From positions 1 through 64,000 of the forward strand of contig JAFGJS010000065.1 in NCBI GenBank assembly GCA_016928995.1: DNA of 64,000 bases. Direction: 5' to 3'. The notes beneath the pieces were generated by a model. It was given only the letters and a program-made list of their open reading frames with translations, was not told where the DNA came from and did no database searches. The DNA is from Candidatus Sumerlaeota bacterium. GTDB lineage: Bacteria > Sumerlaeota > Sumerlaeia > JAFGJS01. Made by a program: the position numbers and the translations under genes. Within the stretch, counting starts at the first letter, position 1; each line of letters opens with the position of its first letter. This document shows, one piece after another, positions 4,127 to 25,425 of the stretch.

Positions 4127-4267
4127 TGCGATGAAACCGCTGAACTGGCAGTTTGTTCAAGCAGGCGGTCTTATCAGGGCGCAGACTTCTTGTCCCTCTT
4201 CAGCGCGGGCGGCTTACGCTTCCCGTCAATTCGTATGACTCCGGTTCCAGGGGAGAGAAGGAAATCG

Positions 4268-7246
4268 ATGAATCGATCCATGCACTATGCCGCGTTGTGC
4301 CTGTGTTGTTTGCTTTCCATGCCGGGCATCGCTCAAAACGCTCAAGAAAATATTTCCAAGAGTTCAAAATTCTCGACGCTCCAGGAAACGGAAAGCATCG
4401 ACAAACGCGAACTTTTGACGCCGCCAGCGTTCAGCGCTTCCGAGACGATCGAGAAGCCGTACCGCCGCAATCAGCAAATCCTCTCATCCTTGCAGGAATT
4501 CAGCACGATTCAGAGCGCGCCGGTGAATCCTTACTACATCCTTGGCCCGCGGGATGAGATTGTCATCAATCTTTGGGGCAAAGTGGTGCGTTCCTTCACG
4601 CCGACGGTGGACGAGGATGGTTTCATCCGGCTCGATTTCGACGGATCGGAATTGCGCTTTTCCGTGAACGGCGTTTTCTATAAAGATTTAAAACAAACCA
4701 TTTTGCGCGAACTATCCAAGATTTCCAGCGATGTGGATATCGATCATCCCGCGACAAGCCCGATCAAAGTGGATGTTTCGCTGGGCAAAATTCGCGGCAT
4801 CAATGTCACGGTCTTGGGCGAGGTGAAGTCTCCCGGGCAATACACGCTTGATGCGACGGCCGGCTCGATCTTCAATGTGATCGCCACAGCGGGCGGATTG
4901 ACCAATAACGCCTCGTTGCGTCAAATCATCATTCGCCGCGCGGGAGGCCGGTCGGAATCGGTCGATCTGCAGGCTTTCGACCTGTACCATGTGCTGGAAA
5001 GCGGAGCGATCAACGAAACGCTGTTTCATTTGCAGGAAGGCGATATTCTGATTGTGCGTCCGCTGGGACCGGCGGTGACGATTGAAGGGGCGGTGAAACG
5101 CCCCGGGTTTTATGAAATCATCGACGGTGAAACGCTGAAAAACGTGGTGGAGTTCGCGCAGGATTTTGAGCCGGGCGCCAATCGCCAGAAAGTCCATGTT
5201 CTGCGGATCAACGTCGGCGGGCAAAATCAGTATCTGGACGTCGATTATGAGGCCGAAGCGGAATTCGCGCTGTTTGACGGCGATCGGATCCGCGTGGACC
5301 GCAGGCCCATGACGCGGCGCTACAATATCGTGGAACTCAGCGGCGGCGGCGTCCGGACGCCGGGCATTTACCAGTTCAAAGCGGGCATGACGCTGAAGGA
5401 CTTGATCCAGATCGGCGAAGGCTTTCATGAAGACGCCTACCTGGAAAGCGTGATGTTTGTGCGCACCAATGAAGACTTCACGATGGATTTTTCCACAATC
5501 GACCTGAGCCAGTTCGATTCCAACACGGAAATTCAGGGAACCTTGCTGCGTCCGTTGGATAAAATCATCGTCTTTTCCAGATTCCAGAAGGCCGGCGGTG
5601 AAAAATACGTGACAATCTCCGGTCATGTGAAGGAGCCGGGACAGTATGAACTGAGCTATAAAATGACGCTCTACGACCTGGTTTTCATCGCCGGAGGATT
5701 TACAGATCCGGATTATCTGGAGAAGACTTACCTGGATCGCGCGCTGCTGACTCGCGAGGAAGCAGGGCAGCAGATGGATATTTCCTTCCACCTCGGACGG
5801 TTGCTGGAGGGGAACGCGGCTGAAAATCACAAACTGCAAAGCAACGACCACGTGCGGATCTACTCCCGCGCCGAGATCGAGGGCAATAAAACGGTCCGGC
5901 TGAGCGGACATGTCAAAAAATCCGGTCAGTATCCCCTGAAGAAGGATATGCGGGTGAGCGACCTGCTGTTCCTGGGCGGCGGCTTTGAGGATCTGGAGTT
6001 CCGCAGCCAGACGTACCTGAAGCGCGCGGACATTATTCGCGTCGATCCGGAGACGCAGGAAAAGAGACGCATCCCCTTCAACCTGGAAGAAGCGCTCAAG
6101 GAAAATCCCGCAGAGAATCTCCTGCTGGAAAATCAGGATCAAGTGGCCGTGTATTCCTTCGTGCAATTCCAGGACAAGCAGCGAGTGAGCATCGAGGGTG
6201 AAGTGCGCGCGCCGGGCGAATACGAACTGACGCAGGACATGACACTGCAGGATTTGATCGCCCTGGCCAAAGGGCTGACGGAAAACGCGGATCCACAGTT
6301 GATCGAAGTGGCGCGCGCCGCAAGTCATTCGGACGATGGCGACAGCGATCAACTGGCGAACATCATGATGGCGGATCCGTCGCCGGAGTCTTTTTTCCTG
6401 CGCAATCAGGACATGGTCTTCGTGCGGCGGAAAAAAGACCGCATGGATAAAAGAATCGTCTCCATCGAAGGCGAAGTGGCTTATCCCGGCAAATACGCGC
6501 TGCTGACGCAGACGGAGCGTCTTTCCGATCTGGTTCGCCGGGCTGGAGGCCTGCGCGAAGGCGCGGCGCCCGAGGCGGCGCTGCTGTACAGACAACAGAT
6601 GCCTGCGGTTGATGAACTCATTCCGGCGTGGAAACAGCCGGAGCCGGAACCGGAGCGCAAGCCGCTGGAATTCGAGGTTGAGTTTAGCTCGCCGACGCTG
6701 AAAGTCGTCATCGCGCCGGAGGAGCAGGAGAAGATTGAACAACTCGAAGCGGAATCACAGGAATCCGGTCAGAAAGTTTCCATCAACCTGGCCCAGGCGC
6801 TGCGAGATCCTCAAGGCCGGGAGGATATGATCCTGCTCGACGGCGACCGGCTCGTGATTCCGAAGCAAAACTGGACGGTGCAGGTGACGGGAGCGGTGTT
6901 GCTTCCCGGCGCGATGCAACACAATCCAGGCAAGCCGCTGTCGCACTACATCGAGCTCGCGGGCGGGTATCTCCCGGAAGCCGATGAGGCGCGCACGGTC
7001 GTGATTCTGCCCAATGGCGAAGCCCGAAGGGCGAAATCTTTTTTCCGCTCCTTCGATCCGCCGGCAGGCAGCGTGATTTACGCGCCTTTCAAGAATGAAG
7101 TTTACAGACGTTCCGCGGATGGAACCGCCGCGCCGCTGGCGCAGATGAACGAAGCGACAAAACAGCAGGATTCGGCGTCCGGCGTTGAAAACGGCAATCG
7201 GCCGGAAGCGGATAATAATATGAAAATGAGAACGCTTGCTCCTTGA
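4268..7246 (+). CDS. Polysaccharide export protein with eight SLBB repeats (Wza-like)
   Basis: 992 residues, far longer than Wza (about 380). It has a signal peptide (residues 1-22, ending GIAQ) and a Poly_export domain at about 87-154 (NPYYILGPRDEIVINLWG). Eight SLBB-type units follow, each recognisable by a G-x-V-x-x-PG-x-Y core: VTVLGEVKSPGQY, VTIEGAVKRPGFY, VELSGGGVRTPGIY, VTISGHVKEPGQY, VRLSGHVKKSGQY, VSIEGEVRAPGEY, VSIEGEVAYPGKY and VQVTGAVLLPGAM. It probably forms or lines the periplasmic/outer-membrane channel for a surface polysaccharide. The start at 4268 has a GAGAAGG sequence upstream and exposes the signal peptide. It is the first gene of an overlapping operon with the Wzz-like and ligase/polymerase-like genes. 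No obvious C-terminal amphipathic helix for an outer-membrane pore is seen. Confidence 0.9.
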   Translation: MNRSMHYAALCLCCLLSMPGIAQNAQENISKSSKFSTLQETESIDKRELLTPPAFSASETIEKPYRRNQQILSSLQEFSTIQSAPVNPYYILGPRDEIVINLWGKVVRSFTPTVDEDGFIRLDFDGSELRFSVNGVFYKDLKQTILRELSKISSDVDIDHPATSPIKVDVSLGKIRGINVTVLGEVKSPGQYTLDATAGSIFNVIATAGGLTNNASLRQIIIRRAGGRSESVDLQAFDLYHVLESGAINETLFHLQEGDILIVRPLGPAVTIEGAVKRPGFYEIIDGETLKNVVEFAQDFEPGANRQKVHVLRINVGGQNQYLDVDYEAEAEFALFDGDRIRVDRRPMTRRYNIVELSGGGVRTPGIYQFKAGMTLKDLIQIGEGFHEDAYLESVMFVRTNEDFTMDFSTIDLSQFDSNTEIQGTLLRPLDKIIVFSRFQKAGGEKYVTISGHVKEPGQYELSYKMTLYDLVFIAGGFTDPDYLEKTYLDRALLTREEAGQQMDISFHLGRLLEGNAAENHKLQSNDHVRIYSRAEIEGNKTVRLSGHVKKSGQYPLKKDMRVSDLLFLGGGFEDLEFRSQTYLKRADIIRVDPETQEKRRIPFNLEEALKENPAENLLLENQDQVAVYSFVQFQDKQRVSIEGEVRAPGEYELTQDMTLQDLIALAKGLTENADPQLIEVARAASHSDDGDSDQLANIMMADPSPESFFLRNQDMVFVRRKKDRMDKRIVSIEGEVAYPGKYALLTQTERLSDLVRRAGGLREGAAPEAALLYRQQMPAVDELIPAWKQPEPEPERKPLEFEVEFSSPTLKVVIAPEEQEKIEQLEAESQESGQKVSINLAQALRDPQGREDMILLDGDRLVIPKQNWTVQVTGAVLLPGAMQHNPGKPLSHYIELAGGYLPEADEARTVVILPNGEARRAKSFFRSFDPPAGSVIYAPFKNEVYRRSADGTAAPLAQMNEATKQQDSASGVENGNRPEADNNMKMRTLAP

Positions 7247-8352
7247 ACGAAAACAATGCTCCAACACATCATGCCCCGCAACCGGAGAACTGGCCCGATG
7301 AGCCGGTGCTGCTGGATTATTTGCTGCCGATCGCCAAATGGCGCTGGATCATTATCACGGGCGTGGCGCTGGCGGGAGTCATCGGGCTGATCATCGCACT
7401 CAACCAAAAGCCGTACTACACTTCCACATTGTATCTGATCCCTCATGGCGCATTTGGCGAAACGGGCGAACTGGAATCGCTGGTCGGCCGGACAGGGAGA
7501 GAGCTGGGGCGAAGCCAAAACTCCAGTATGATTCAGGATTATTATGCTCATGCCTTTGGCTCGCGGCCCGTGCTGCGCCGATTGCTGGAGCGGTCCTTTT
7601 CAACCTCTGGCAACAAAGAGCCTCAAACGCTGCTGAAACTGCTGTCCGTTCCAGCAGGCTCTCCAGCGTTTCAACTGGAGAAAGGATTGGATCGGGTCAA
7701 ACGCGATATGACTGTGCGCGTCAGCGGCGGCAAGATTGTCGCGGTTTCATACACATCGCACGATCCGCAGCTCTCCGCGGACGTGGCGAACGCCATTCCG
7801 GAGATTTACACCGAACTCTCACGGCAGGACGACTCCTCGTCTTCGGTGTTGAGCCTGATCCAGGACCGGCTGCGATCCACGCAGAAAAAATTGACGGCGA
7901 AGGAAAATGAAATCACGGAGATCAAATCCCGGTTGCTGGATTCCATGCAGCCGGACGGCCAGATGCGGCTGAATGTCTTGATGCGTGAAGCCAACGACCT
8001 GGAGCGCTTCATCGAGACGCTCAACTCGGAATTGGCGCTGGCGGAAATCCGGCAGATGCAAAAACAGCAGGAATTAATGCAGGAATTCGACATCATCGAA
8101 CCGGCGGCGCCGCCATTGATGAAAAGCGGCCCCTCCAAGAAACGAACTTTATTGCTGTTTCTGGCGCTGGGCGCGACGCTGACGACGGGCATCATCTTTG
8201 TTGTGGAATACTTTCAAAACGCCCGGCGGCTCAATCAGGATCATCCCTTCTGGCAATACAGCAAACAATCGTTGCGTGATTTCATCATCGTAGGAGCCGT
8301 CGCGATACTCTGCGGCGCGGCGCTTCTGCTTTATCTTCGCATAAGCGGCTGA
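7243..8352 (+). CDS. Wzz-type chain-length determinant / polysaccharide co-polymerase
   Basis: 369 residues. An N-terminal cytoplasmic tail is followed by TM1 (about 33-52), then a periplasmic domain with a long coiled-coil stretch (about 200-280, VLSLIQDRLRSTQKKLTAKE). TM2 lies at about 303-322, preceded by the proline-rich EPAAPP found before TM2 in this family, and an extra C-terminal TM at about 347-366. It has no C-terminal Walker kinase domain. The start codon is TTG at 7243, overlapping the TGA of the export gene by 4 nt, so it is probably translationally coupled. It should set polymer length together with the exporter and the ligase/polymerase. The third TM is unusual. Confidence 0.87.
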   Translation: MNENNAPTHHAPQPENWPDEPVLLDYLLPIAKWRWIIITGVALAGVIGLIIALNQKPYYTSTLYLIPHGAFGETGELESLVGRTGRELGRSQNSSMIQDYYAHAFGSRPVLRRLLERSFSTSGNKEPQTLLKLLSVPAGSPAFQLEKGLDRVKRDMTVRVSGGKIVAVSYTSHDPQLSADVANAIPEIYTELSRQDDSSSSVLSLIQDRLRSTQKKLTAKENEITEIKSRLLDSMQPDGQMRLNVLMREANDLERFIETLNSELALAEIRQMQKQQELMQEFDIIEPAAPPLMKSGPSKKRTLLLFLALGATLTTGIIFVVEYFQNARRLNQDHPFWQYSKQSLRDFIIVGAVAILCGAALLLYLRISG

Positions 8353-8354
8353 CA

Positions 8355-10394
8355 ATGGGCGGCGCTTCAAACAGAGCGGCTGGCGGAACGGAATCACCCG
8401 GCGTTTCGACCGATTATCTGTTGTGGTTTGTCGTCAGCCTCACTGCGCTGGCCGGCATGACGCACATCATGTCGAGTTTCTATACGCCGAAAATTCTTTG
8501 GGCCGCCGCGAGCCTGGGGCTGGCGTTGATCTTTTTGGCGCCTCCGAATCAAGCCGCGAAGGGATTGACGCCTCTCGGCGTGATATGGACGGCGTTCGCA
8601 GGATGGGCCGCGTTTTCCCTGACATGGGCGCTGTCGCCATACGCCGGCTTTGAGCGCGTCGTCGTGCTGTTGCTGCTTACCGCCGCTTATCTCATCGCCC
8701 AACGAACGCGATTTTGGACGCACGATGCTTTCTGGCGGCTTTTTTGCGGCCTTTCCATCGTGATCAGCCTGGCGGGCTGCCTGCAATATTTACTGCACGA
8801 TCATCCTTTGATCCGCTGGATCCCCACGGCGGCCACTCCCTCTTCCACCATGGGGCAGCGAAACATCGCCGCGACGTATCTGATCGTCACTCTGCCCTTC
8901 ATCGCCTGGCATTATTTCAAGGCTCCGCCGCGCGCCGCCTGGCTTCCGTTATGCGCGCTATTCATCGGCATGCTCTTTCTGCTGTTCACCCGCTGCCGGG
9001 GCGCCTGGCTGGGCGCTGTGCTGGGTGCGTCGTTCGCCTTTTGGCATTCAGGCGCGCCGCAGACGAACGCGCTGAAAAAGAAATTCGCGCTGTTACTCGC
9101 GCCCGCGCTGCTGGCCATCCTGATCGGCTCGATCATTCCGCCCTCCGCGGCGTTCATCAACAGCAGCAAACGCACCGCGCTCGATGCGGTGGAATCCTCG
9201 GTTGCTATGATGGAGCATACTCGATTGCCCGGATGGATTCGCGGCATGCGCACGGAGCGCAAGCTTTTCCTCGGTTGCGGCCTGGGCAATTACCCGGTCG
9301 CGGCTTCGCCGTTGCTGGCGGAAGGCAAGGCGCTGGCGCTGGACGCCGATCTGCATAATGATTTTGTGCAAAGTTTCATTGAACTCGGCGTTCCGGGGCT
9401 TTTGCTCTATCTTGCGATTTATATCGCGTTGCTGTGGATGATTGCGCGCCGGCGGGGAAACGGCTTGTTGGCCGCGTCCGGCGCGGCGATCACCGGATTC
9501 ATTGTCGCGCAAAACTTCATGTACATGTCGCAGGACATCAGCAGCGGCGTTTGGATCGCGGGCGTCGCGGCCTTGATCGTGGTTGAAGCCGAAGCTAAAC
9601 CATTGCTCAAACGCACGATTCCCATCGGCGCGCTGAAAATCGGCCGCCTTGTGGCGACGGTTTTGCTGTTTCTGCTCGCCGTCATGGCCTGCCTGTCGAT
9701 TCGCGGCGACCGGCGATTTCGCTATGAGTCTTTCCAGAACCAGCCCGACATGGCCTATCTGGCGCGGAAAATCTGGCCCACAATGTGGATCGATTGCACG
9801 ATGCTGCATATCAACGCGCATATCTTCGCCAACATCGCGAACGATCTCGGCGATGCGGAAGCTACTGAGTTTTGGGCGGAACAAGCGTTGGCGCTGCATC
9901 CCCGCGATTCCGCCTCGATTGCGTTGCTGGCGGACGCCCAGGAACGGCAGGGCGAAATCGACAAGGCGATCGCCACGCTGGAAAAGGCCATGGATGCTTT
10001 TCATTATCATCCGTACCTGAAAATCACGAATCAGTTGGAACGGCTCTACAAGGAAAGGAATGAAACCGAAAACCTGGCGCGACTGAAATCCAAAATCCAG
10101 GAGTCTCGCGTCGGTGTTCCGCAAAATCCGACACCGGCCAATCGAGCGAACGATGTCCCGCTGGACATCCGCCTCGACTGGAGCGGCTGCAACGCCGCCG
10201 ATCATTATGAGCTCTATCTCTGGAAGACCGGCGAACTCAAACCAGTCTGGCCGTTGGCTCGTCCACGCGAGAGCCGCTTTGATCAAGAAGTTCCGCTTGA
10301 AAGCGGGACGATTTATTTCTGGCAAGTGACTGCGGTTGGTAAACTCCGTCGTGAGAACAGCGAAGTTTGGTATTTCAAAACGGAGCGGCGCTGA
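8355..10394 (+). CDS. O-antigen ligase/polymerase-like membrane protein with TPR and Fn3-like tail
   Basis: 679 residues. Roughly ten or more transmembrane helices occupy residues 1-445. The Wzy_C/WaaL-type periplasmic loop is recognisable (GCGLGNYP, then DLHNDFVQSFIELGVPGLLL). The C-terminal third is soluble: TPR-like helices at about 485-575 (AEQALALHPRDSASIALLAD), then a fibronectin-III-like beta domain at about 590-679 (LDIRLDWSGCNAADHYELYL). TPR tails occur in this family; the added Fn3-like domain is less usual and may bind glycan or protein partners. It starts 2 nt after the Wzz-like stop, so it is the third gene of the operon. Ligase versus polymerase cannot be decided. Its 3' end overlaps the convergent OPT-like gene by 20 bp. 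Confidence 0.87.
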   Translation: MGGASNRAAGGTESPGVSTDYLLWFVVSLTALAGMTHIMSSFYTPKILWAAASLGLALIFLAPPNQAAKGLTPLGVIWTAFAGWAAFSLTWALSPYAGFERVVVLLLLTAAYLIAQRTRFWTHDAFWRLFCGLSIVISLAGCLQYLLHDHPLIRWIPTAATPSSTMGQRNIAATYLIVTLPFIAWHYFKAPPRAAWLPLCALFIGMLFLLFTRCRGAWLGAVLGASFAFWHSGAPQTNALKKKFALLLAPALLAILIGSIIPPSAAFINSSKRTALDAVESSVAMMEHTRLPGWIRGMRTERKLFLGCGLGNYPVAASPLLAEGKALALDADLHNDFVQSFIELGVPGLLLYLAIYIALLWMIARRRGNGLLAASGAAITGFIVAQNFMYMSQDISSGVWIAGVAALIVVEAEAKPLLKRTIPIGALKIGRLVATVLLFLLAVMACLSIRGDRRFRYESFQNQPDMAYLARKIWPTMWIDCTMLHINAHIFANIANDLGDAEATEFWAEQALALHPRDSASIALLADAQERQGEIDKAIATLEKAMDAFHYHPYLKITNQLERLYKERNETENLARLKSKIQESRVGVPQNPTPANRANDVPLDIRLDWSGCNAADHYELYLWKTGELKPVWPLARPRESRFDQEVPLESGTIYFWQVTAVGKLRRENSEVWYFKTERR

Positions 10395-12453
10395 CGGCGC
10401 CGTGGATCAGTCGCAGGGCCATGACCAGCATGCTGACGAGTCCGGCGCCGGTGAAGTATCCCGCGGCGAGCGCCGGCGCGAGGCGCAGAAACCGCTCGCG
10501 TCCGAATTTGCGCTGGAAATAAAACCGGCTTAGCAGCGCGCCCGTAATCTCCAACAACATCGCATGCGGCAATTGTCCCATGCCACGAATCAAACCATAG
10601 ATCAACATCACAGGCAAACCGAACGCGCTGAGCAGCGCGTATAACGCGACCGTGCCGCTCAATCCGGCGAAGATGGTCTTGGGGTGAATCGCGCGCATGA
10701 ACTCGCTGTCGCGCACGCTGACTTCGGCGTCGCTCTGGCCGGGCGGCGTGAAGGTGCTGCTCATCAGCAGCGTTTGATTCTTCGCGGCGAGTTCCCAGTG
10801 TATCTGCGCGGCGGGATAGAGGTCGGACGGGATCGCATCCGACTTCCAGATGAAGGCCCAGAACATCAGCGAGAGAATGAACAGCACCGGCAACGCGACG
10901 AGATCGGTCTTGATCAGCGAGCGGAAATTGACGCCGGTCAGTTCGCAGACGCGGAAGGACTGCGCCATGCCGCCATAGTTTTCGATGGGCACGGGCGCGA
11001 GCCAGAGATCGAGTCCGCGAGCGCCGGAAAAGAGAAACGCCGCCTCGCGCACAAACGGAATTTCCGCCGTCTGGCCGGAGAGCCCGAGCAGCCGCGCGTT
11101 GACGTACGAAATGAACGGGCTGTAAATGAACGCGAAGAAAATCAAAAAGAACAGAATCGCGGCGCTGCGGGGCAGCAGCAGCCAGCAGACGAAAACCGTG
11201 GCGCCTGCGGCGGCGGCGTACAGCCCCAGCGCGAGCCAGAGCGAGTAATCGCCGCGACCGGTGTTGGGCGTGATCCACAGGCCTTCGAGTCCGGCGCGGC
11301 CCTGGCCCTGACGGCGCAGCTCGCGCCAGCGCGAAAGCACGTCGCGCGCCGTGGCCCAGCAGCACACCAGCGAGATGCCCAGCCCGGCGCCGATGCCAAA
11401 AGAAAGCCAGAAATCGACGCTATTGGCGAACGCGGTGTTCACCGTATCCATGCCCGGCTGCCAGTGCGGCATCACGCCGAAATGCTGCAACGTGGGATTG
11501 AGGATCATGGTCAACGCGATGGCGAGGAACGTGCCGATCACCGCCCAAAAGGGAATGATGAAGCCGATGAACACGATGCCCGGATCAATGGCGAGGCCGG
11601 TGGGCGTGGCGGGCAGGATCGACTCGGTGAGCTGCGTGGCGTCCACGAACGGCTGCGCGATGGGATACACCGGATGAGCGAAGAAAATTCCCGTGAGTCC
11701 TGGCACGCCGATGGAAAAGACGCTGAAGGCCAGACCGATCATGGCGCCGAGCGAGAAGATGCGCCAGCGCAGTTTCGATTCGTTCGATGCGGCGGAAGAC
11801 GGTTTTGTTGCATCGCGCTCATCTGGCTCCTCCGGCTCGCTCAGCGCCAGCGCGCCCTGGGCCTGGATCGGCGCAAGCGGAAAGGGCAGGTTTTCGATGT
11901 CGGAAGTCAGCCGGAAGAAAAAGTAGCCCAGCGTGTAGCGCTTGATCAGACCGATGACCATCAAAAATGCGACGAGCAGAATCGGCACGCGCCAATCGGG
12001 ATGCAGCAGGTTGCGCTCAAGGATCGCCGCGCTGTCCGGCGCTGGCGCGAACCAGGACGGGAAGGATTCGGACATGCCCGCGTCGCGCGCCGCTTCGCTG
12101 CCGGCCAGGTACGCGCGATAAACCAGCCAGCCCAGCGGTCCGCCGGGCACGAGCATCGACGCGGCCATCATTACGTGCGTGGCGTGAAGCAGCACAACGA
12201 GCTGCTCGCGCTTCAGCGGCCGGAGCGAGCGCCGCGCCAGTTCCATGAACAGCGCGACCGTGACCCATGCCGCCGCCGTGCCGAGGCTGCCGCCGGTCAT
12301 CAGGCCAAGATAGATCGCGCCGGGCATCATCACGATGCCGCAGAAAAAAATGCCTGCGACCGTGGTCCAGCCAAAGCCGTCGCGATATTCGCCGGAAGGC
12401 ATCATCAGCGAACGGTACAGTTCGATTTCACGGTCTTTGCGTTCGAGGCTCAT
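10375..12453 (-). CDS. OPT-superfamily-like polytopic transporter
   Basis: 692 residues with about 14 hydrophobic helices. It resembles oligopeptide-transporter (OPT/YSL) relatives and DUF6785-like proteins in its N-terminal helix pairs (GIVMMPGAIYLGLMTGG), its long cytoplasmic Glu/Asp-rich loop at about 225-245, and its multiple Gly/Pro-rich helices. The substrate is unknown; peptides or metal chelates would fit OPT. The start at 12453 (MSLERKD) avoids an N-terminal extension encoded by a short repeat. No strong Shine-Dalgarno site is seen. It is the last gene of a minus-strand set with the giant FtsX protein and a second OPT-related protein. The family call rests on overall pattern rather than a diagnostic motif. 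Confidence 0.6.
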   Translation of the reverse strand: MSLERKDREIELYRSLMMPSGEYRDGFGWTTVAGIFFCGIVMMPGAIYLGLMTGGSLGTAAAWVTVALFMELARRSLRPLKREQLVVLLHATHVMMAASMLVPGGPLGWLVYRAYLAGSEAARDAGMSESFPSWFAPAPDSAAILERNLLHPDWRVPILLVAFLMVIGLIKRYTLGYFFFRLTSDIENLPFPLAPIQAQGALALSEPEEPDERDATKPSSAASNESKLRWRIFSLGAMIGLAFSVFSIGVPGLTGIFFAHPVYPIAQPFVDATQLTESILPATPTGLAIDPGIVFIGFIIPFWAVIGTFLAIALTMILNPTLQHFGVMPHWQPGMDTVNTAFANSVDFWLSFGIGAGLGISLVCCWATARDVLSRWRELRRQGQGRAGLEGLWITPNTGRGDYSLWLALGLYAAAAGATVFVCWLLLPRSAAILFFLIFFAFIYSPFISYVNARLLGLSGQTAEIPFVREAAFLFSGARGLDLWLAPVPIENYGGMAQSFRVCELTGVNFRSLIKTDLVALPVLFILSLMFWAFIWKSDAIPSDLYPAAQIHWELAAKNQTLLMSSTFTPPGQSDAEVSVRDSEFMRAIHPKTIFAGLSGTVALYALLSAFGLPVMLIYGLIRGMGQLPHAMLLEITGALLSRFYFQRKFGRERFLRLAPALAAGYFTGAGLVSMLVMALRLIHGAVSAAPF

Positions 12454-12469
12454 GGGATGAAAAACTCTA

Positions 12470-12515
12470 AATCCGAAATTCGAAATCCGAAACAAACACT
12501 AAATTCAAAAATCAA
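12470..12515. repeat. ATCCGAAAT low-complexity intergenic repeat
   Basis: Tandem-like units of ATCCGAAATTCGAAATCCGAAAC followed by AAATTCAAAAATCAAAG. Shadow translations give NSKSEIRNPK-type peptides. It lies just upstream of the OPT-like gene. Confidence 0.6.
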
Positions 12516-12541
12516 AGCGCCGGCACAAGACTGCTGAGCCG

Positions 12542-12577
12542 GTCGGACTTGTCGGACTTGTCAGACCAGTCCGACAT
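12542..12577. repeat. GTCGGAC-type short intergenic repeat
   Basis: Three units of GTCGGAC(TT)GT and an inverted GTCCGAC at the right end. Related sequence lies between dcm and vsr (48196-48237) and in the linker of the kinase-MurQ fusion (21172-21213). Confidence 0.65.
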
Positions 12578-12610
12578 TTCTGAAAACGGAACACTCAACT
12601 AGAACCGCTC

Positions 12611-15600
12611 CTAGCCTTGATGCCACAGCAACATATGCCGGCGCAAGCGGGCGATGAAGCGGCGGTTCATTTGCCGCCAAGCCTCGCGTCCTCCGGATTG
12701 GTGGCGCAGCGTCACGCGCAGCCGGACGCGCCCGCTCATATCATTGCCGGCGCGGATGCAGACATCCTGCGCCACGCCGCGCTCAAACGGCTTGAGCCAA
12801 AGCACGGCGTGGATCTCGACCGCGCTCTCACGGACCAGATTCTCCACTGCAAATCCAGTCGCCCCGTGGCCATGATCGACCAGGAATTCCATCGCCGCTT
12901 CAAGCGCTGGCGCCGTACGATCCGGCGGAAGCAAAAACGGCAATTCAAACTCCAGTTCGCCTTCGCTCGGTTCGCGCAGTTCCCAACCGGTCCGATCGCT
13001 TGGCCGGGTCATGCGCAACGCGGCGCGCGCGGGAAGCAACGCCGCAAGCAACGCCGCCGCCGCGACGCCCCAGGATGCCTGCACCGCCAGCAGCGACGCA
13101 TACGAAAGCTGCAAACCTTCGCCCCAGCCCAGCGCGGCGGCGATGCGCCCGGCGCCCTGGCTGAGCATGAAGCCGCACAGCGAGGCAATCGTGACGTAGA
13201 CCAGCGCCTCGGCGAGGAACATGAAAAAGACGTGCCGCGGCGAGACTCCGATGGCGTTCAGCACACGGATTTCACCGCGGCGCTCTTGCGCGGCGCCGGT
13301 CATCGTATTGAATACCGTGAGCATGACGATCAGCAGCGGCGCCAGCAGCGTGAGCCAGCCCTCCAGCGAACGCAGACGCCGCTTGCGCCCCTTCCAGGCC
13401 AGGCTTTCCACGCCGTAATGCGCCGCCCGGCCGCTCTGCTCCAGGTAACGCTCCACTTCGGCGCGCACTTCCGCCGGAGGCGCGCCGCTCATGTCCACCG
13501 CAATGGAAAGCATGCGATGCTGCGCGCGCGGCGTGGCGAACGGCAGCGCCCGATACGGCGCAAGCACGATTTCCTCCGCCGGAATGCGCGGGGCGTTTGG
13601 ATCGGCCAGAGCCTGCGTTCTGTCGAGCCGGATTTCCGGAAGCGCCTCGATGTCAAACGGCAGCGCGTCCAGCCCATCCAGATCACGCCAGCGCGCGAGC
13701 GACTCAGCTTCGAAAATTCCATGCACGCGGCAGGCCGTTCCATTGATCCTCACGCGCATCGTCGTCTCGGCGTCCACGTCGCTGACGGTCAGTCCGAGAC
13801 GTTCGGCCATGCGATCCGAAATCATCACGGGCAGTTCGCCCGATTCACGCTCATGTTCTGGCGCGAAACCCTTGCGCCGAGTCAACATGCGCACTCCGCG
13901 CCAAAGCGGATCGCCGCTCTTCAGGCAAATGATCGAGCCGGCCTCCGCCTGCCATGCGCGTTCCGCGGTGCGGCGTTCGAGGCGCAGTTCCGGATTATAC
14001 CCTTTGCGATCCTTCCACCATTGTTCGCCGGTCAACACAATGCGCGGACAAACCCGGAAGCGGCGGCCGTAGCGTTGTTTGACCGCTTGCACCTCCGGCG
14101 AAGTCAGCGTGCGGAAACGCTCGCGCTTGATCAGCAGCCCGTCGTAACTCGCCGCGCCGACGATGGCCGCGCTGTCCACAAGTTCTTCGCGCACGGCGGT
14201 GAGCGCGATGATCGCGGCGGCCATCAACGTGATGGTCGCGAGCGTCAGGCCCGTGCGCACGGGACGCCGTCGCAGGTTGTTCACGCCCAGCATGAACGCC
14301 GCTCCGGCCAGCGTGATGCGCATGGCGCGCGTGCCTTCCGGCGCGGCGGCGCGTCCGCGCAAGGCGTCCACGGCATCCTGAAAACGGCCGGCGAAAAGCT
14401 GCATCATGCCCGCCGCGATGAACAGGACGACAAAGCCAAGCAGGATGATCAACGGCGAGCGCGCCAGATGGAACGCTGGATGCAACGCCCAGAGCGCGAT
14501 AAACACCGCGATGAACAGCGCCGCGCGCGCCGCTAATCGCGCGCGCAGATCGGCGTATCCAAAGAGCAATCGCTCCGCAAAAAAGGCGAACGGCGCGGCG
14601 AGCATCAAATGCCACAACGCGCTGATCATCGCCTCCCAGACGTTGCGCCGCAGCACGGGGTGATTCAGCGCGGCGTAAGTCAGGGCTTCGCGTTCGATCT
14701 CGCGGCGGCGTTGCGCAGGCAGGCTGCGATCCGCGCTTTGTTCAAGTAACCGTTCCGCTTCGCGCTGATACTCCACGAGCCGCTCGTCGGCCATGCCGAA
14801 ACGCTCCTGGTCCGCCAGCCGCGCGGCGTTCAACGCCGTCATGGAACGCGCGGCTTCAAACGCCACACTGTCAAAACGCGGCCGCGCCGCGGCCAGATAA
14901 CCCTCGAAGGTCCGCAGGCGCTCAGCGTCACTCATAGATGCCGCAACGTCTTGACGCGGCGCGCCCAGCATGAACGCACGCACGCTGCGCGCGTTCGGCT
15001 GCTCCGGCGATCCGCTTTCCAGCGCAACGAAGAAACGCTTCTCCGGCTCGATGAATTTCAGGCGCAGCCCGATGCCGGAAAATTCGATGCTCCGGCGGAA
15101 CGGCGACAGCGTCTCGCGGTCGAGTAGCCGCAGCCCGGAGTAATCCTCCAGTGTTTGCGGATTAACCAGCTCCATCGCGCACACCGGCTCCGCGCGAAAC
15201 GCGACAATGTTCACGTTCGACAAATCGCGGAAGAACCAGTTCAGCCGCGTGGATTGAAATTGCCGCTGGCCTTCCTCGCCTTCGTCCTTGATCCAGGCGA
15301 TGCGGCCGCTCGCATCGTGCCACGCCGCCACGGGGCCGTAGCCGTTTTTACTCGTCGATTGAAACACCCAGAAATCCGTTGCGGCGTTCTCCAATTCGTA
15401 ACGGCCGTATGGGTCAGTGAGCAGCAGCGGATGGATGTAAAATCCCGGTTTATTGAACGCGTTGGAATACGGCAAAGGACGTCCGGCCACGACGGCGCCG
15501 GCCAATCCAAACGACGGCAGCGGATCGGAACCGACGCCGTCCGCCAGCACACGTCCGCCAAAATCAGGACGCAGCAGCGCGGGTTTCGGCGCCTCGAAGC

Positions 15601-17560
15601 GTCCCGCGCCATGCGCCACGGCGAGCGCGAATTCTCCCGTCAGCTGCAACGAGGCCTGGATGCATTCCACGTCGTGCATGTAGGGCAAGTCCGCAGGCCA
15701 GGACCAACTGCGATATGTCTGGCCGCGGCCCAGGTTCCACAAAGTCGCGGCGGGATGTCCGAAACTGCTCCACATTCGCGCGCCAAGGTCTTCCAGCGGC
15801 TGAGCCTGAAGCGCGATGTTGTTTAGCATGTTACGATTTTCGTTTTCAATGACATTGACAGCCGCCGCTAGAGGATCGGCCTCGCGCAACTGGCGGGCGG
15901 CGTTGCGCAAGAGATTACTGGTTTCGAGCGCGGCGGGAGCGTTGTTCGTTCCGTAGCTCAATCCAGCCTCTTCACGGGGATCGCCGGTTTCCACCACAGG
16001 AGCTAGGCGCGGCTCGAACACGATCAACTTGCGATACGACTTCAGCGCATCGAACGCGGCCAGTTCGCTTTCACGCCTCGAGCATTGACTAGCGTGCCAA
16101 TCGCGCAGTTCGGCAAATCGCGCGATGCAACTTTCTCGCATATAGTGTGTTTGCAGAAAATCGCGGCGCGTCCCCTGAGACTCCAACAGCCGTGTAATGT
16201 CAAGACTGGAAAGCGACTGAGCCAGATTGGCCGCCTTGCGCGCCTCGTTCCATGCGCTGCGCGTTTTTGCATTGTCTTCCATTTCCATCGCGATACGACG
16301 CTCCATCACGATGTTCTTTAATTCGAAGGTCAGTTGCAGCAACGCATGCTGCGTTTGCTCTGCGAAAAATGTTTGTTGTTCCTCGTTCAGATTTTTCAAT
16401 GCGGCGGCGGTTGCGTCCGCCTCATCGAAAAATGACTTATCCTGAAACAACTCCAGCACAACATCGGCGTTTTCTCGCGCTTGCCGCTCTTGATCCAACC
16501 GCTGTTGAATTTTAGCGCGGCGCACGGACGGCTCGACGGAAGGCGTGTCGAGCGCGGCGATGAGCTGCGCCTCGCCCGCGCGCGCCATCATCCTGGCGCC
16601 ATCGCAAATGAATACGACATCGCGCGTCAAAGTTTTGCGGTTAGCGGCCATCGCGCGGGCAAGCGCGATCTGCGTGGCGGGCGAAAGCGCCTGAACCGTT
16701 CCTGGGGCGCGATCGGGCAAAATGGAGCATGCATCGTAATGGCCGAGGATCAGCAGCGCCTCTTCGCTCATTGCGGATTCATTCGCGCGCAACACGGCGA
16801 TCAGCGTCGTGATTGGCAACCGTGCAAACTCGGCATGCGCGCGGATATTCATGCGCTCACCGGCATGCTGAAAAATTTCGCGCGAAGCGGCGAAACGCGG
16901 ATAGTCCACCGGCTCGTCCGAGATCATCCCCCAGCCCGGCTGCGCGATCATGCTCCAGTTCGCCGCGTCGAGGCCGTCCAGATGCGAAACAATGACCGCG
17001 CGAAAACCAAGCGCAGCGAAACGCGTCCAATCGCAGCCGTAGTCGGGAATGATGCTTCCGTCCGCCGTGTCGATGAGCGCGATGCAACCGTCGAAGCGCG
17101 CGCGTTCATGCAGGATTTGCCCGGTGACAAGCACGAGTTCGCCGCTCAAGCCGTCCGGCGGCGTGGTCACGGGCTGCAAGTAATTCGGCAACAAGGGGAA
17201 TAGTCCCACATCCGGCAGATTGCTCGTGCACTGCGTTGTGCGCGGCGCGGCGACGTCGCCATGCAGTTCGATGAGCTCAAGGCCGTCTTGCTCGAATGAC
17301 TTGCGCAAATAATCGAGAGCGGCGGCATGACCCGGCTGGCCGATGAAGCGCGAACCCAACGCAAAGATCATCTCCTGTTCCCGCTCGACGGCGCGCCAGT
17401 CCATCGCCTCGCGCATGGCGGCGGAGTCGTAGCTGCGCGCGGCGGTTTGCGGCGGCTGATACTCCGGCGGGCGCCACAACGTGCTCCAGCCTGCGATCAA
17501 GGCTGTTGAACACGCGATCAAGAGCAGAGCGGCGATGAAATGTGCGGCGATGCGCTTCAT
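12611..17560 (-). CDS. Giant FtsX-type ABC permease with degenerate M28 peptidase domain
   Basis: 1649 residues. TM1 (about 5-26) leads to an M28 aminopeptidase-like domain at about 60-335 (GSRFIGQPGHAAALDYL, LILGHYDACS), with a PA-like insert at 105-235. The metal/catalytic set looks lost: His and Asp of HYD remain, but the bridging DN and catalytic EE positions read TV and AR. A long extracytoplasmic helical and beta region follows. Membrane helices lie at about 1005-1100, an FtsX/MacB-type unit begins near 1120 (NNLRRRPVRTGLTLATITL), and a second helix cluster at 1405-1510 carries ERRGEIRVLNAIGVSP, typical of FtsX. A soluble tail of about 120 residues closes the protein. The start at 17560 has AGG 7 nt upstream and lies 10 bp after the preceding gene. 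No ATPase partner is visible. Probably envelope lipid or substrate handling; function unknown. Confidence 0.78.
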   Translation of the reverse strand: MKRIAAHFIAALLLIACSTALIAGWSTLWRPPEYQPPQTAARSYDSAAMREAMDWRAVEREQEMIFALGSRFIGQPGHAAALDYLRKSFEQDGLELIELHGDVAAPRTTQCTSNLPDVGLFPLLPNYLQPVTTPPDGLSGELVLVTGQILHERARFDGCIALIDTADGSIIPDYGCDWTRFAALGFRAVIVSHLDGLDAANWSMIAQPGWGMISDEPVDYPRFAASREIFQHAGERMNIRAHAEFARLPITTLIAVLRANESAMSEEALLILGHYDACSILPDRAPGTVQALSPATQIALARAMAANRKTLTRDVVFICDGARMMARAGEAQLIAALDTPSVEPSVRRAKIQQRLDQERQARENADVVLELFQDKSFFDEADATAAALKNLNEEQQTFFAEQTQHALLQLTFELKNIVMERRIAMEMEDNAKTRSAWNEARKAANLAQSLSSLDITRLLESQGTRRDFLQTHYMRESCIARFAELRDWHASQCSRRESELAAFDALKSYRKLIVFEPRLAPVVETGDPREEAGLSYGTNNAPAALETSNLLRNAARQLREADPLAAAVNVIENENRNMLNNIALQAQPLEDLGARMWSSFGHPAATLWNLGRGQTYRSWSWPADLPYMHDVECIQASLQLTGEFALAVAHGAGRFEAPKPALLRPDFGGRVLADGVGSDPLPSFGLAGAVVAGRPLPYSNAFNKPGFYIHPLLLTDPYGRYELENAATDFWVFQSTSKNGYGPVAAWHDASGRIAWIKDEGEEGQRQFQSTRLNWFFRDLSNVNIVAFRAEPVCAMELVNPQTLEDYSGLRLLDRETLSPFRRSIEFSGIGLRLKFIEPEKRFFVALESGSPEQPNARSVRAFMLGAPRQDVAASMSDAERLRTFEGYLAAARPRFDSVAFEAARSMTALNAARLADQERFGMADERLVEYQREAERLLEQSADRSLPAQRRREIEREALTYAALNHPVLRRNVWEAMISALWHLMLAAPFAFFAERLLFGYADLRARLAARAALFIAVFIALWALHPAFHLARSPLIILLGFVVLFIAAGMMQLFAGRFQDAVDALRGRAAAPEGTRAMRITLAGAAFMLGVNNLRRRPVRTGLTLATITLMAAAIIALTAVREELVDSAAIVGAASYDGLLIKRERFRTLTSPEVQAVKQRYGRRFRVCPRIVLTGEQWWKDRKGYNPELRLERRTAERAWQAEAGSIICLKSGDPLWRGVRMLTRRKGFAPEHERESGELPVMISDRMAERLGLTVSDVDAETTMRVRINGTACRVHGIFEAESLARWRDLDGLDALPFDIEALPEIRLDRTQALADPNAPRIPAEEIVLAPYRALPFATPRAQHRMLSIAVDMSGAPPAEVRAEVERYLEQSGRAAHYGVESLAWKGRKRRLRSLEGWLTLLAPLLIVMLTVFNTMTGAAQERRGEIRVLNAIGVSPRHVFFMFLAEALVYVTIASLCGFMLSQGAGRIAAALGWGEGLQLSYASLLAVQASWGVAAAALLAALLPARAALRMTRPSDRTGWELREPSEGELEFELPFLLPPDRTAPALEAAMEFLVDHGHGATGFAVENLVRESAVEIHAVLWLKPFERGVAQDVCIRAGNDMSGRVRLRVTLRHQSGGREAWRQMNRRFIARLRRHMLLWHQG

Positions 17561-17570
17561 GAGCAACCTA

Positions 17571-20015
17571 TCAAAAGATCATCCCGACGCGCGGGACTTC
17601 GGGATGGCGCCAATACAGCCATGCGCTGATCAAGCCGAAGATTAAATGCGCGGCGAAGCTGGCTAATACGCAGCCGATGGCGAACGGCTCGACGCCCTGG
17701 CGGATGGCGCGAGCGCCGCCGATGCGTTGCGCCGCTACCCGCACAATCCAGGCGACAAGCACGCTGCCCCAAATGTATTCCATCATCGGCGTCATGCCGA
17801 GCGCAAAACCGGATGGATGCAGCCAGAATCCAGCGAAGATGCGCCGCAATGCGCCCAGCAGAAACGTGACGCCCGCGCCAAAAGCGAAGGCAAGACGCTC
17901 CTCACTGGCAGACTCTCCGCTGACTGGATTGCCTTCGGCGCGCACAAGCGCCATATTGAATGAATCGAAATCCATCGAACGATCACGGAAAACCCATGAC
18001 GCGCCGAGATTTTCTCCGCCAAGTGCGTTGGCCGATGACAGAAAAAACCATCCGCCGAACAGCATGCCGCCCGCCGCGCCGATCATCGCGGCCAGCGCCA
18101 GGCGTCCGGCAGGCAAGCGCAGCCGTTCGCCCAGCGCCAGCAACTCGAGCTGCAATCCAGGCACGACAAAAAACAAGCCGGAAAACGCGATCAGCGACGT
18201 GAGCAGCAGCGTCATCGAGGCGTTGCGGCCGATTGCATCGATTCCGCCGATCAACGGGAGCAGCGCGAACACGCTGACTGGAACGAAAAAAGCGAACGGC
18301 GCTCCGCATTCAGCTCTTAAGCGCGCGGCAGCTGCGCCGACAAGCAACGCAATCCCTGCGATCAGCAACATGCCGCGCACACCGACGCCTTGCCAGGCGC
18401 CCCAGAGCAGCATCGCGATCACGCAAATGATAAGACCGGCCAGCCATGATGTTTGCCGCCGCGACATCATGGAATCATCCGCCGGCCGCGAGCGTTTGAG
18501 CCAGCGCCGCAAGGGAATCGCGGACGCCAGCGCCAGCGCGGCATAAGCGAGGAACGCGCCCAGTTGCTGTTGCGCCGGACGGGGGTAGTCTGGATCAACA
18601 GCCCAGCCTGTCGCTTCGCCGATGAAGTATTGCGCACGATATAGCGCAAAACCGAGCAGCAGCCCGGCGAGCATCTCCGTCGGCATCAAGGCCGACAGAC
18701 CCAGGAACATCGCGGTGACAGTGAACGTGATCGTGGGCAGATGCTCGCCCTTCCACGTGCGCCCCCACGCCGCTCCGTTGAAAAAAGGATCGAGTTCCAG
18801 ATAAATTTTCGCATCCGGCACGCTGACGTTGTAGCCGTGCCATCCGCATAGCAGGCGCCATGCCAGCGCGGCTCCGAAACTGATCCACATCGCGCGCGAG
18901 CGCCAGATAACTCCGCCGCGTTCACGCAATCCAAGCAGCTCCGCCGGAATCTGCGCCATCGGCAGCGCGCAATGTTCGCGGTCGATCCATTGCCGCCGGA
19001 GCAACGCCATGAAGCACAAGAGCATGCCGCTCATCAGCAACATCAACACGGTCCAAGCGACGACTGGCCGCAGCCACATTGATGGGATGTGGCCACCGAG
19101 CAGCCAGCGCGCGCCTGCCATGCTCAGCATGCGCTCCGGCGAGCGTTCCACATCCGTGCACAGCGCCAGGCGGTCCGCATCCGGCGCGTTGGCCGGAACG
19201 CTGCGGCGTCCATGTTGCAACGCCTCCAGCGCGCCCGCGGAAACCAACCGCGCGCCACGCGCTTCGAGTTCGCCTGTGCCGTCAAGACCGAGCTCAAGTG
19301 TGATGCGATTACGGATGCCGACAGGGAATTTCAGCCCATAACGGCCTTTGAAAATAAAATCGCCGGATGTCTCGCTGGATCGAAAAACTTCGATCGACTC
19401 GTCTTCCGCTTCATCGGCGAATGCGCGGCAATAGTAGTATGCGTCCGGCGCCAGCTCTTTCGCGCGCAATTCCACCGTCAGCAAATACGGTTCATCCGGA
19501 ATCACGCCGCCTTCACTCTTCGTATCATCCGGATTACGCACAAGCAGTTCGATGCGCAAAGGCGCGTCATCCGTCACGGTTGCAGGTTCGAATGTCGCGA
19601 TGCAATCGGCGCCATGCGGCCACAATCCAACCGGAACGTATTGCAGCAGTTCGAAATCCTCTGTTCGCGGCAAGGTGGAAAGATAGGCGCCGGCGAGTTT
19701 CCAGAATCCGCGCGAAGTCAGCGGCGCGGCGATGAGCATCGCAAACAGCGCGCAAAGTAGGGCGTCGCGCCGGAGGAGCGCATGCCATCCGAACGCGCGG
19801 CATACCGCATTCACCGCCAGCATCAGCAGAAAAATCAGCATCGCCGGCACAGCCAGGGCGTAATGCGAAGCGTTGCCTTGCGAGCCGTCCACGACTTCCC
19901 AGAACTGCGTCAGTCCAGCCGCGAACACGGTTCCCGCCAACGCCAGCGCCGCCAGCATCCACCAAGGGGAATGCCCGTTCGCTTCATCCGATTGTTTGTG
20001 GGGGCGCTCATTCAT
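17571..20015 (-). CDS. OPT-related polytopic membrane protein (DUF6785/DUF6784-like)
   Basis: 814 residues. TM helices bracket an extracytoplasmic beta-rich domain at about 105-280 (YVPVGLWPHGADCIATFEPA). Further helices follow with RRQWIDREHCALPMAQIPAELLGL, a signature I associate with DUF6785 proteins, and a C-terminal part with FWLHPSGFALGM resembling DUF6784/OPT tails. About 15 membrane segments in all. It is first in a minus-strand set, 10 bp before the M28-FtsX gene. The start is ambiguous: GGAGG lies 12 nt before the ATG at 20015 but 3 nt before that at 20024. Transport is likely; the substrate is unknown. Confidence 0.65.
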   Translation of the reverse strand: MNERPHKQSDEANGHSPWWMLAALALAGTVFAAGLTQFWEVVDGSQGNASHYALAVPAMLIFLLMLAVNAVCRAFGWHALLRRDALLCALFAMLIAAPLTSRGFWKLAGAYLSTLPRTEDFELLQYVPVGLWPHGADCIATFEPATVTDDAPLRIELLVRNPDDTKSEGGVIPDEPYLLTVELRAKELAPDAYYYCRAFADEAEDESIEVFRSSETSGDFIFKGRYGLKFPVGIRNRITLELGLDGTGELEARGARLVSAGALEALQHGRRSVPANAPDADRLALCTDVERSPERMLSMAGARWLLGGHIPSMWLRPVVAWTVLMLLMSGMLLCFMALLRRQWIDREHCALPMAQIPAELLGLRERGGVIWRSRAMWISFGAALAWRLLCGWHGYNVSVPDAKIYLELDPFFNGAAWGRTWKGEHLPTITFTVTAMFLGLSALMPTEMLAGLLLGFALYRAQYFIGEATGWAVDPDYPRPAQQQLGAFLAYAALALASAIPLRRWLKRSRPADDSMMSRRQTSWLAGLIICVIAMLLWGAWQGVGVRGMLLIAGIALLVGAAAARLRAECGAPFAFFVPVSVFALLPLIGGIDAIGRNASMTLLLTSLIAFSGLFFVVPGLQLELLALGERLRLPAGRLALAAMIGAAGGMLFGGWFFLSSANALGGENLGASWVFRDRSMDFDSFNMALVRAEGNPVSGESASEERLAFAFGAGVTFLLGALRRIFAGFWLHPSGFALGMTPMMEYIWGSVLVAWIVRVAAQRIGGARAIRQGVEPFAIGCVLASFAAHLIFGLISAWLYWRHPEVPRVGMIF

Positions 20016-20117
20016 AAGCCGCATCATCCTCCGGTTCTCGCGTAAAAAATCAGATCTCGATGCGGCAAGCAAGCGAAAGCGCGCATCCAGCCTCAAGCAA
20101 TCTTGTTTTAGTTTTGC

Positions 20118-20146
20118 TTGTTTACGGACATCGGGCAGCGTAAGAT
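20118..20146 (+). promoter_or_regulatory. Promoter candidate for the kinase-MurQ gene
   Basis: TTGTTT (20118-20123), 17 bp, TAAGAT (20141-20146), within the 179-bp divergent region between the DUF6785-like gene and the fusion gene. The ATG at 20195 would be about 42 nt from the transcript start. Confidence 0.45.
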
Positions 20147-20194
20147 ACGATCCAAAATGAACCATCCATTCGCAGCTTCAAGGCGCGATTATCC

Positions 20195-22075
20195 ATGAAC
20201 TCACAGGCGGAACAAGCCAAGACAATATACGTATTAGGCGTCGACGGCGGCGGCGCGCACACGCGCGCTTGCGTGATGGACGGCGCAGGCCGCGAACTGG
20301 GCCATGGCGCGGCGGAATCATCGAATCTGCGCGCGGTGGGTCTCGAAGCGGCCTGTGCGCAGATCCACGCGGCGATTCATGATGCAATCGCGGCGGCGAA
20401 ACTGAGCGCGCCGCTGGACGCGATGCACTGCGCGCTGAGCGGCGCCGGACGGCTGGCGGACGCGGTGGAGATCCGCGCATTGCTGGAAGACTCACGTCTG
20501 GCGCATCGTGTGAGCGTGGGGCATGACGCGGAAGGTCTGCTGGCGGCGGCGAGCGTGCGAACGGGCATCGTGCTGATCGCCGGCACGGGATCGATTGCAT
20601 GGGGCATGGATGAGAACGGCGAGCAATCGCGCGTCGACGGCTGGGGATCGCTTTTAGGCGACGCGGGAAGCGGATTCGCCATCGGACTGGCCGGCATTTG
20701 CGCGGCGCTGAAGATGTTCGATCATCGCAAAGCGGAAACATCGCTGCTGCAGGCCGCGTTGCAGTTCTACGCCGTGGCGGATCCCAGCGAACTTGTGGCG
20801 CTGCTGGCCACGCCAAATATCCCAAGGGGCAAGATCGCGGCGTTTGCGCGCGAGGTGTTTGCCGCGGCCGAAGCCGAAGACACTGACGCGATTGAGATCA
20901 TTGAACGAGCCGCGCAGGAGCTCGCCGACATGCTCAGCGCCGTGCGAAGACGGTTGTTCGGCGAAGGGATGCGCGGCGTGCGCATCGCCGCGTCGGGCGG
21001 ACTGCTGACGCATCATCCGGAGTTCTGGGAGGACGTGCGCACGCGGCATGCGGCTTTGTTCCCGGCGGACGAAGCGCGGCTGATCACAACCGGGATCGAA
21101 TTGGGCGCGGCGCGTCTGGCCTTGCATGGGATGGGGATCGACTTGATGGACACCGAGCAACCGGCAGGAACGTCCGTTCGACCGGACATAACGGACTCGT
21201 CTGACGAATCCGGCATTCAAACTGCCGCCCCCCCAAATGCGCTGTTTGAACAGCTCGGACAATTGGCGACGGAGCGGCGGAATCCGGCCAGCATGCGGTT
21301 GGACCGGATGAGCGCGTTGGAGATCGTGCGGCTGATGAATCGCGAAGACGCCGGGATCGCGAGCGCCGTAAAACCGGCGCTGCCGCGCATCGCCGAAGCC
21401 GTGGACCGCATTGTGGAACGGTTGCATCAAGGCGGCCGGTTGTTTTATATCGGCGCGGGCACCAGCGGACGCCTGGCCATGCTTGATGCGGCGGAATGTC
21501 CGCCGACGTTCAGCGCGCCGACCGAACAGGTGCAGGGCGTCATCGCGGGCGGCGAAGCGGCGCTGACCGTGAGTCAGGAAGGCGCCGAAGACGACGAGGA
21601 CGCCGCAGTGCAGGACTTGCAGGAAAGCGGATTGAACGCGGGCGACATGCTGGTGGGGCTGACAGCGTCCGGGCGCACACCGTACGTGCTGTCGGGGCTG
21701 CGGCACGCCCATGCGCTTGGCGCGGCGACGGCGATGATCTGCTGCAACCGGCTCACTGACGCGCCGGACGGTGTTGAGATCTTGATCGATATCGAGACCG
21801 GTCCGGAAGTGCTGACAGGATCGTCCCGCCTGAAAGCCGGCACAGCGCAGAAGATGATCCTGAACATGCTCACCACGGCGGCTTTTACGCGTCTGGGAAA
21901 AGTGTACGAGAACCTGATGGTCGATCTTCAGCCGAGCTGCGGCAAGCTCGTCGAGCGCTCCCGCCGTGTCGTGATGCAAGCCGCGCGCTGCGATTATGCC
22001 GCTGCAGTGTGGCTGCTCGAACAAACCAACGGCGACGTCAAAGCGGCGATTCTCTTGCATCAGAAACAACCATGA
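20195..22075 (+). CDS. murQ: Fused amino-sugar kinase (BadF/NagK family) and MurNAc-6-phosphate etherase
   Basis: 626 residues, two enzymes in one chain. Residues 1-318 are a BadF/BadG-type ASKHA kinase: phosphate loop GVDGGGAHTRA (15-25), LSGAGR (81-86), IAGTGSIAWG (128-137), GWGSLLGDAGSGFAIG (149-164) and ASGGLL (266-271). Residues 349-626 are a SIS-fold MurQ: RLFYIGAGTSGRL (415-427), DAAECPPTF with catalytic-type E434, and QEGAEDD with E462. MurQ cleaves the lactyl ether of MurNAc-6-P to GlcNAc-6-P and D-lactate. A kinase of this family (MurK type) can make MurNAc-6-P, so the fusion plausibly runs both steps of cell-wall sugar recycling. The linker (319-348) is Asp/Ser-rich and encoded by sequence like a local intergenic repeat. 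Kinase sugar specificity is inferred. Confidence 0.9.
   Translation: MNSQAEQAKTIYVLGVDGGGAHTRACVMDGAGRELGHGAAESSNLRAVGLEAACAQIHAAIHDAIAAAKLSAPLDAMHCALSGAGRLADAVEIRALLEDSRLAHRVSVGHDAEGLLAAASVRTGIVLIAGTGSIAWGMDENGEQSRVDGWGSLLGDAGSGFAIGLAGICAALKMFDHRKAETSLLQAALQFYAVADPSELVALLATPNIPRGKIAAFAREVFAAAEAEDTDAIEIIERAAQELADMLSAVRRRLFGEGMRGVRIAASGGLLTHHPEFWEDVRTRHAALFPADEARLITTGIELGAARLALHGMGIDLMDTEQPAGTSVRPDITDSSDESGIQTAAPPNALFEQLGQLATERRNPASMRLDRMSALEIVRLMNREDAGIASAVKPALPRIAEAVDRIVERLHQGGRLFYIGAGTSGRLAMLDAAECPPTFSAPTEQVQGVIAGGEAALTVSQEGAEDDEDAAVQDLQESGLNAGDMLVGLTASGRTPYVLSGLRHAHALGAATAMICCNRLTDAPDGVEILIDIETGPEVLTGSSRLKAGTAQKMILNMLTTAAFTRLGKVYENLMVDLQPSCGKLVERSRRVVMQAARCDYAAAVWLLEQTNGDVKAAILLHQKQP
21172..21213. 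repeat. GTCGGAC-type repeat-like sequence inside the kinase-MurQ linker
   Basis: The linker DNA contains CGGACTCGTCTGA, a 13-nt match to the dcm-vsr intergenic repeat, among further GTCCG/CCGGAC units. It encodes RPDITDSSDESG, resembling the SDxSD peptides that this repeat family gives in translation. Confidence 0.5.
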
Positions 22076-25356: not shown

Positions 25357-25425
25357 AAATCTCATCCCGAAAATAGAGCTGTAACTTTACTTAGCCGCAC
25401 TGCCCGTTTACAGCAAAAAATATAA

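Follow-up and report, generated by a model that had tools for sequence, protein, structure and literature searches.

Three large membrane protein genes at the locus

The 64,000-nucleotide stretch analyzed here (the window; positions 1 to 64,000 of contig JAFGJS010000065.1 of a Candidatus Sumerlaeota bacterium) carries three large open reading frames that lie head to tail on the minus strand and are transcribed in the order DUF6785/6784 protein, giant permease, OPT-like protein (Table 1). A preliminary description of this DNA had reported three such membrane protein genes with gaps of 10 and 157 bp, and the reading frames confirm the arrangement: the intergenic gaps are 4 and 115 bp when the longest reading frames are taken, and the quoted values correspond to later start codons, an ATG at 17560 and a start at 12453. 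The 3' end of the OPT-like gene overlaps the end of a convergent Wzy gene (8355-10394, +), and genes for an ATPase, a small permease and a PqqD protein are all absent within the window.

Table 1. Genes of the window module and domains of the giant permease
Feature	Coordinates	Strand	Length or basis
DUF6785/6784 protein, first module gene, multi-TM	17571-20165	-	864 aa; 814 aa from the ATG at 20015
Giant permease	12611-17566	-	1651 aa; Pfam, hydropathy, full-length relatives
Giant, PA + M28-like pseudo-peptidase domain, first part, residues ~32-345	16532-17473	-	Profile search, Foldseek
Giant, FtsX/MacB C-terminal permease domain, residues 1411-1519	13010-13336	-	PF02687, 2.5e-12
OPT-fold (predicted) membrane protein, last module gene	10375-12495	-	706 aa; 692 aa from 12453

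The module is adjoined on one side by Wzy, Wzz and SLBB genes and on the other by an apparent NagK-MurQ gene. The former (4190-10394, +; SLBB with eight SLBB stretches by Pfam, Wzz-like, and Wzy_C/TPR) make up an exopolysaccharide locus that converges on the module. The latter (20195-22075, +) is divergent from the module across a very short gap and encodes a BcrAD_BadFG (NagK-like) kinase fused to a SIS/GKRP part; Pfam itself gives SIS/GKRP and BcrAD_BadFG, the SIS/GKRP part is apparently MurQ, and the whole is possibly a peptidoglycan-recycling fusion.

Two of the three proteins had been called OPT-related in the preliminary description, and this holds for one of them. The 706-aa protein is predicted to have the OPT fold: its AF2 model (32-sequence alignment; pLDDT 84.1, pTM 0.85) was matched by Foldseek to two barley Yellow stripe 1 (YS1) entries in the PDB (7wst, 8.9e-9, and 7wsr, 7.5e-8; TM scores of 0.66-0.68 by target length) and to no other entry below 1e-3, and the structural alignment, which spans essentially the full length, has about 14% identity. 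Yellow stripe 1 is an Fe(III)-phytosiderophore transporter. Unlike OPT/YSL proteins, the window protein lies below Pfam OPT detection and is accompanied by an ABC/FtsX giant; neither OPT (PF03169) nor any other Pfam family gave a significant match to it, PF03169 was found in two of 32 relatives (best 1.6e-7), and a profile of the family found no real relative among PDB sequences, which leaves the fold as the main basis of the OPT assignment.

The protein encoded by the first gene, on the other hand, is at most distantly OPT-related. It matches PF20581 (DUF6785; 7.1e-44, 150.6 bits against a cutoff of 25) and PF20580 (DUF6784; 8.1e-16, 58.5 bits against a cutoff of 26.4), and both families were matched in 23 of 23 of its operon relatives. 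Alignment of DUF6785 with the OPT-like family by hhalign (E 2.6e-4, probability 42%, 444 collinear columns) is suggestive only, and the protein is possibly a very divergent OPT-fold relative. The two are not recent paralogues, as their BLAST similarity is nil and a distant profile match is all that connects them. Neither DUF6785 nor DUF6784 is named in any paper of the literature searched, which mostly excludes subscription journals and preprints.

The giant consists, in order, of an N-terminal TM segment, an extracytoplasmic arm of ~950 aa, a TM block (residues ~979-1125), a loop, FtsX-type TM segments (~1400-1510) and a C-terminal cytoplasmic domain (~1530-1651), and a coupling-type motif, ERRGEIRVLNAIG, lies inside its FtsX/MacB domain. 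A predicted structure of residues 25-1000 (pLDDT 87.5, pTM 0.88) has PA-containing M28 aminopeptidases as its leading Foldseek matches (PaAP, 8ack, 1.7e-13; BSAP), followed by PSMA/GCPII and the transferrin receptor. An hmmsearch with a profile of 35 ectodomains likewise gave an aminopeptidase (2ek8, 3e-20), the transferrin receptor (7.6e-7) and nicastrin (2.2e-5); Pfam M28 itself is present in the ectodomains of 26 of 35 relatives and is weak in the window giant (E 0.026, below cutoff). Every one of the 55 giants inspected has other residues at the positions of the catalytic Glu pair, and only the window protein keeps the metal-binding His of HxD. Because the M28 fold is matched and the catalytic residues are lost, the arm is a PA + M28 pseudo-peptidase fold, and the earlier view of the giant as a catalytically dead M28 fold joined to an FtsX/MacB permease is upheld by the fold and PF02687 matches. 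In the transferrin receptor and nicastrin a dead M28 domain is known to act as a receptor; there, too, the PA/M28 fold has lost catalysis and is used as a binding platform. Those proteins are eukaryotic and have no permease fusion, whereas the M28 fold of the giant is split by a helical insertion and picks up again at about residue 513. Profile comparison gave no support (E 0.076, probability 0.7%) for a tandem-FtsX origin of the giant, in which its first TM block would be another FtsX module.

Co-occurrence and gene order of the components

A scan for relatives with the giant alone as query found none, and the OPT alignment was used in its place; the resulting scan of species genomes gave at least 572 relatives, of which 80 were kept. 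Their record names are mainly those of Desulfobacterota groups, with Sumerlaeota, Planctomycetota, Lentisphaeria, Kiritimatiellae, Armatimonadetes and Latescibacterota also represented. The operon map covers 84 loci, and in the 42 of these with full flanks the giant was found in 39, an ABC ATPase in 38, a smaller FtsX-type permease (PERM) in 37, DUF6785 in 35, a PqqD-like gene in 25 and SMALL, a ~300-aa protein of no known family, in 24. Desulfobacterota operons run PERM-ATPase-giant-DUF6785-OPT, and the other groups with all five genes have the order DUF6785-giant-OPT-PERM-ATPase; DUF6785 is absent from the Armatimonadota loci. The preliminary statement that no ATPase lies nearby is thus correct for the window and incorrect for the system, and the orphan ABC ATPase that was to be looked for as a partner is present in most of these loci as well as in a second operon of the host genome (below).

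The set of 42 loci is biased by its operon-derived query, so presence in whole genomes is the cleaner test of co-occurrence. The OPT-like protein and the giant coincide in the same nine of 39 Sumerlaeia genomes (a giant tally that leaves out short FtsX-only matches) and in the same 20 of 246 genomes of Desulfobacterota (the Desulfatibacillum phylum). Were the genomes independent, an assumption that does not fully hold, such exact matching would have chance probabilities of ~5e-9 and ~1e-29, respectively. Within the genomes tested the co-occurrence of the two proteins is strict: in two genomes (G043 and G129) their genes are clearly unlinked and both are still present, and at five loci (L051, L072, L077, L095 and L102) the giant is seemingly missing beside the OPT gene and is present elsewhere in the genome. 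In the Desulfatibacillum phylum, matches to the PqqD-like subfamily above 90 bits occur in eight of the 20 genomes with OPT-like protein and giant, and the other 226 genomes have none. Divergence is also correlated among the components (r 0.82-0.98), to which shared ancestry contributes as well. These observations establish the composition of the system and the co-dependence of its components, and the co-occurrence that the preliminary description proposed to look for is conserved in two phyla, with operon order kept across phyla. Chance adjacency of unrelated large membrane protein genes, for which we found no support, is ruled out for practical purposes by this phyletic matching and the conserved operons, and we give it a vanishingly small probability.

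The host genome contains a second operon, on contig C110, with genes for a giant, an OPT-like protein, SMALL, a PqqD-like protein, PERM and an ABC ATPase; it lacks DUF6785 and lies downstream of genes that we read as resembling flagellar fliP/fliR/flhB. Its ATPase is of the LolD/MacB/YbbA class (LolD, 2.7e-69), is the closest one in the host genome, and is 66% identical to a window-class ATPase. A PqqD-like accessory protein of the system matches PF05402 (2.6e-8), as PqqD/RiPP recognition proteins do, and the only such gene of the system's kind in the host genome is that on C110. The window and C110 OPT-like proteins are about 40% identical, and the window protein is 62-65% identical to those in four other Sumerlaeota, so the window module represents a distinct class and not a recent duplicate. 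In the window-class operons of Sumerlaeota the OPT gene is followed by PERM and ATPase genes and, where there is enough flank, by a PqqD-like gene and a second ATPase gene; in the window this tail is absent, and the convergent Wzy gene directly follows the OPT-like gene. A lone window-class FtsX-type permease gene, whose full-length matches are window-class PERMs, is found on contig C152 (4147-5124, -, of locus L133), near a PMT-type glycosyltransferase gene. We read the window module as the DUF6785-giant-OPT part of a split second copy of the system, and since it lacks the ATPase, small permease and PqqD genes this copy may be partly degenerate.

A candidate ABC machine with OPT-fold partners

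We think it probable, although well short of certain, that the module belongs to an apparently undescribed inner-membrane machine, a type VII ABC system joined by OPT-fold partners, that is spread across many phyla. Co-occurrence, operons and folds all support the earlier suggestion of a new multi-gene system built from a dead M28 domain, a permease and OPT proteins, and no description of it was found in the literature searched (mostly without subscription journals and preprints), an absence that is not proof. The core would be a type VII ABC transporter (MacB/LolCDE/FtsEX class) with PERM and the giant seated on a dimer of the LolD/MacB-type ATPase. It shares with LolCDE, MacAB-TolC, FtsEX-EnvC and YbbAP-TesA the FtsX/MacB permease domain, an ATPase of the LolD/MacB/YbbA class, two permease subunits (in full operons) and a large extracytoplasmic part. 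It differs from them in its ectodomain, predicted to be a ~950-aa PA + dead M28 fold, and in its partners: an OPT-fold protein in every genome tested, a DUF6785 protein and, in many cases, a PqqD-like protein. The arm would serve as a periplasmic binding platform, and the energy of ATP hydrolysis would go into moving it by mechanotransmission, as described for MacB, FtsEX and YbbAP-TesA (PMC5985334, PMC11491553, PMC12646458), and not into driving substrate through the space between the ABC subunits. A substrate that contains peptide or glycan would find its route through the membrane, or a gated partner, in the OPT-fold protein (together with the DUF6785 protein), and in the many copies that have one the PqqD-like protein would recognize a peptide on the cytoplasmic side. 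From these features we infer that the parts form a physical complex that handles peptide, glycopeptide or glycan.

What do the neighboring genes suggest about the substrate and its direction? In Desulfobacterota GT28-type and GT4-type glycosyltransferase genes often lie directly upstream of the operon (e.g., upstream of PERM at L148 and L149), sometimes with a polysaccharide deacetylase or methyltransferase-like gene. Such neighbors, like those of the window module, suggest a link to glycan or glycopeptide, and with glycan biosynthesis genes adjoining many of the related operons, either of these is as possible a substrate as a peptide. No radical-SAM or precursor-peptide gene was seen recurring beside the PqqD-like gene. 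In eukaryotes, OPT carriers take up their substrates by proton coupling, which would speak for import; we slightly favor export because PqqD-like proteins are cytosolic and the upstream glycosyltransferases are biosynthetic. Against the proposal, neither the PqqD-like protein nor SMALL is universal, and DUF6785 is lacking at the Armatimonadota loci and in the C110 operon. A more specific form of the proposal, a hybrid primary/secondary transporter in which FtsX-type mechanotransmission through the dead-peptidase arm gates or energizes the OPT carrier and the PqqD-like protein selects a (glyco)peptide, is one that we hold tentatively, as possible and still doubtful.

Alternative readings and significance

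The same components might instead form an FtsEX-like signaling or remodeling machine, whose ABC core moves the arm and so regulates an envelope enzyme or a glycan-assembly complex, the OPT-fold proteins being scaffolds or lipid/glycan scramblases. According to PMC11627006 and PMC12646458 the type VII systems FtsEX and YbbAP-TesA do work on periplasmic partners, and the glycan-related genes upstream of many Desulfobacterota operons and on both flanks of the window module would suit such a role. These neighbors vary from phylum to phylum, however, and a full OPT-fold protein is kept in every giant-bearing genome, which suggests a transport role; we judge this reading rather unlikely. A metal-chelate or oligopeptide importer, in which a classical proton-coupled OPT carrier works with an ABC/giant part that captures substrate in the periplasm, is favored by Yellow stripe 1 being the only PDB fold match of the OPT-like protein and by the sequence relationship of the arm to the transferrin receptor. 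It is made improbable by the recurrent neighbor clusters, among which genes for an outer-membrane receptor or a chelator did not appear, and by the PqqD-like protein and glycosyltransferases, which fit import poorly. Decay of the window module into a non-functional copy would account for its lack of linked ATPase, permease and PqqD-like genes, but its three reading frames are full length, it is not a recent duplicate, and a window-class permease persists on C152, so this explanation is quite improbable too.

We know of no earlier ABC system that depends on an OPT-fold protein. The type VII machine proposed above, if real, would be the first, and it would have a dead M28 domain wired to an ATP-driven permease; an OPT protein serving as its gated path would make it a new kind of system. 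DUF6785/DUF6784 and a bacterial family of OPT-fold proteins, with 572 or more members, gain a shared and testable context. Because the system has cultured carriers (Desulfatibacillum alkenivorans, Desulfacinum infernum and Halodesulfovibrio spirochaetisodalis), its substrate and direction are open to experiment.

Some other genes near these operons deserve mention. Downstream of the operon in Desulfobacterota, a recurrent group of STAS-like, HATPase-like, cyclic-nucleotide-binding-like, ABC exporter and SpoIIE/MASE10 genes (13918-19306, -, at L068, and at similar loci) is possibly a partner-switching regulatory set. The window itself also encodes a Radical SAM + B12-binding protein beyond LepA (24061-25365, -), apparently unrelated to the module, and an [FeFe]-hydrogenase large-subunit protein with a small-subunit domain and ferredoxin repeats (603-2420, -).
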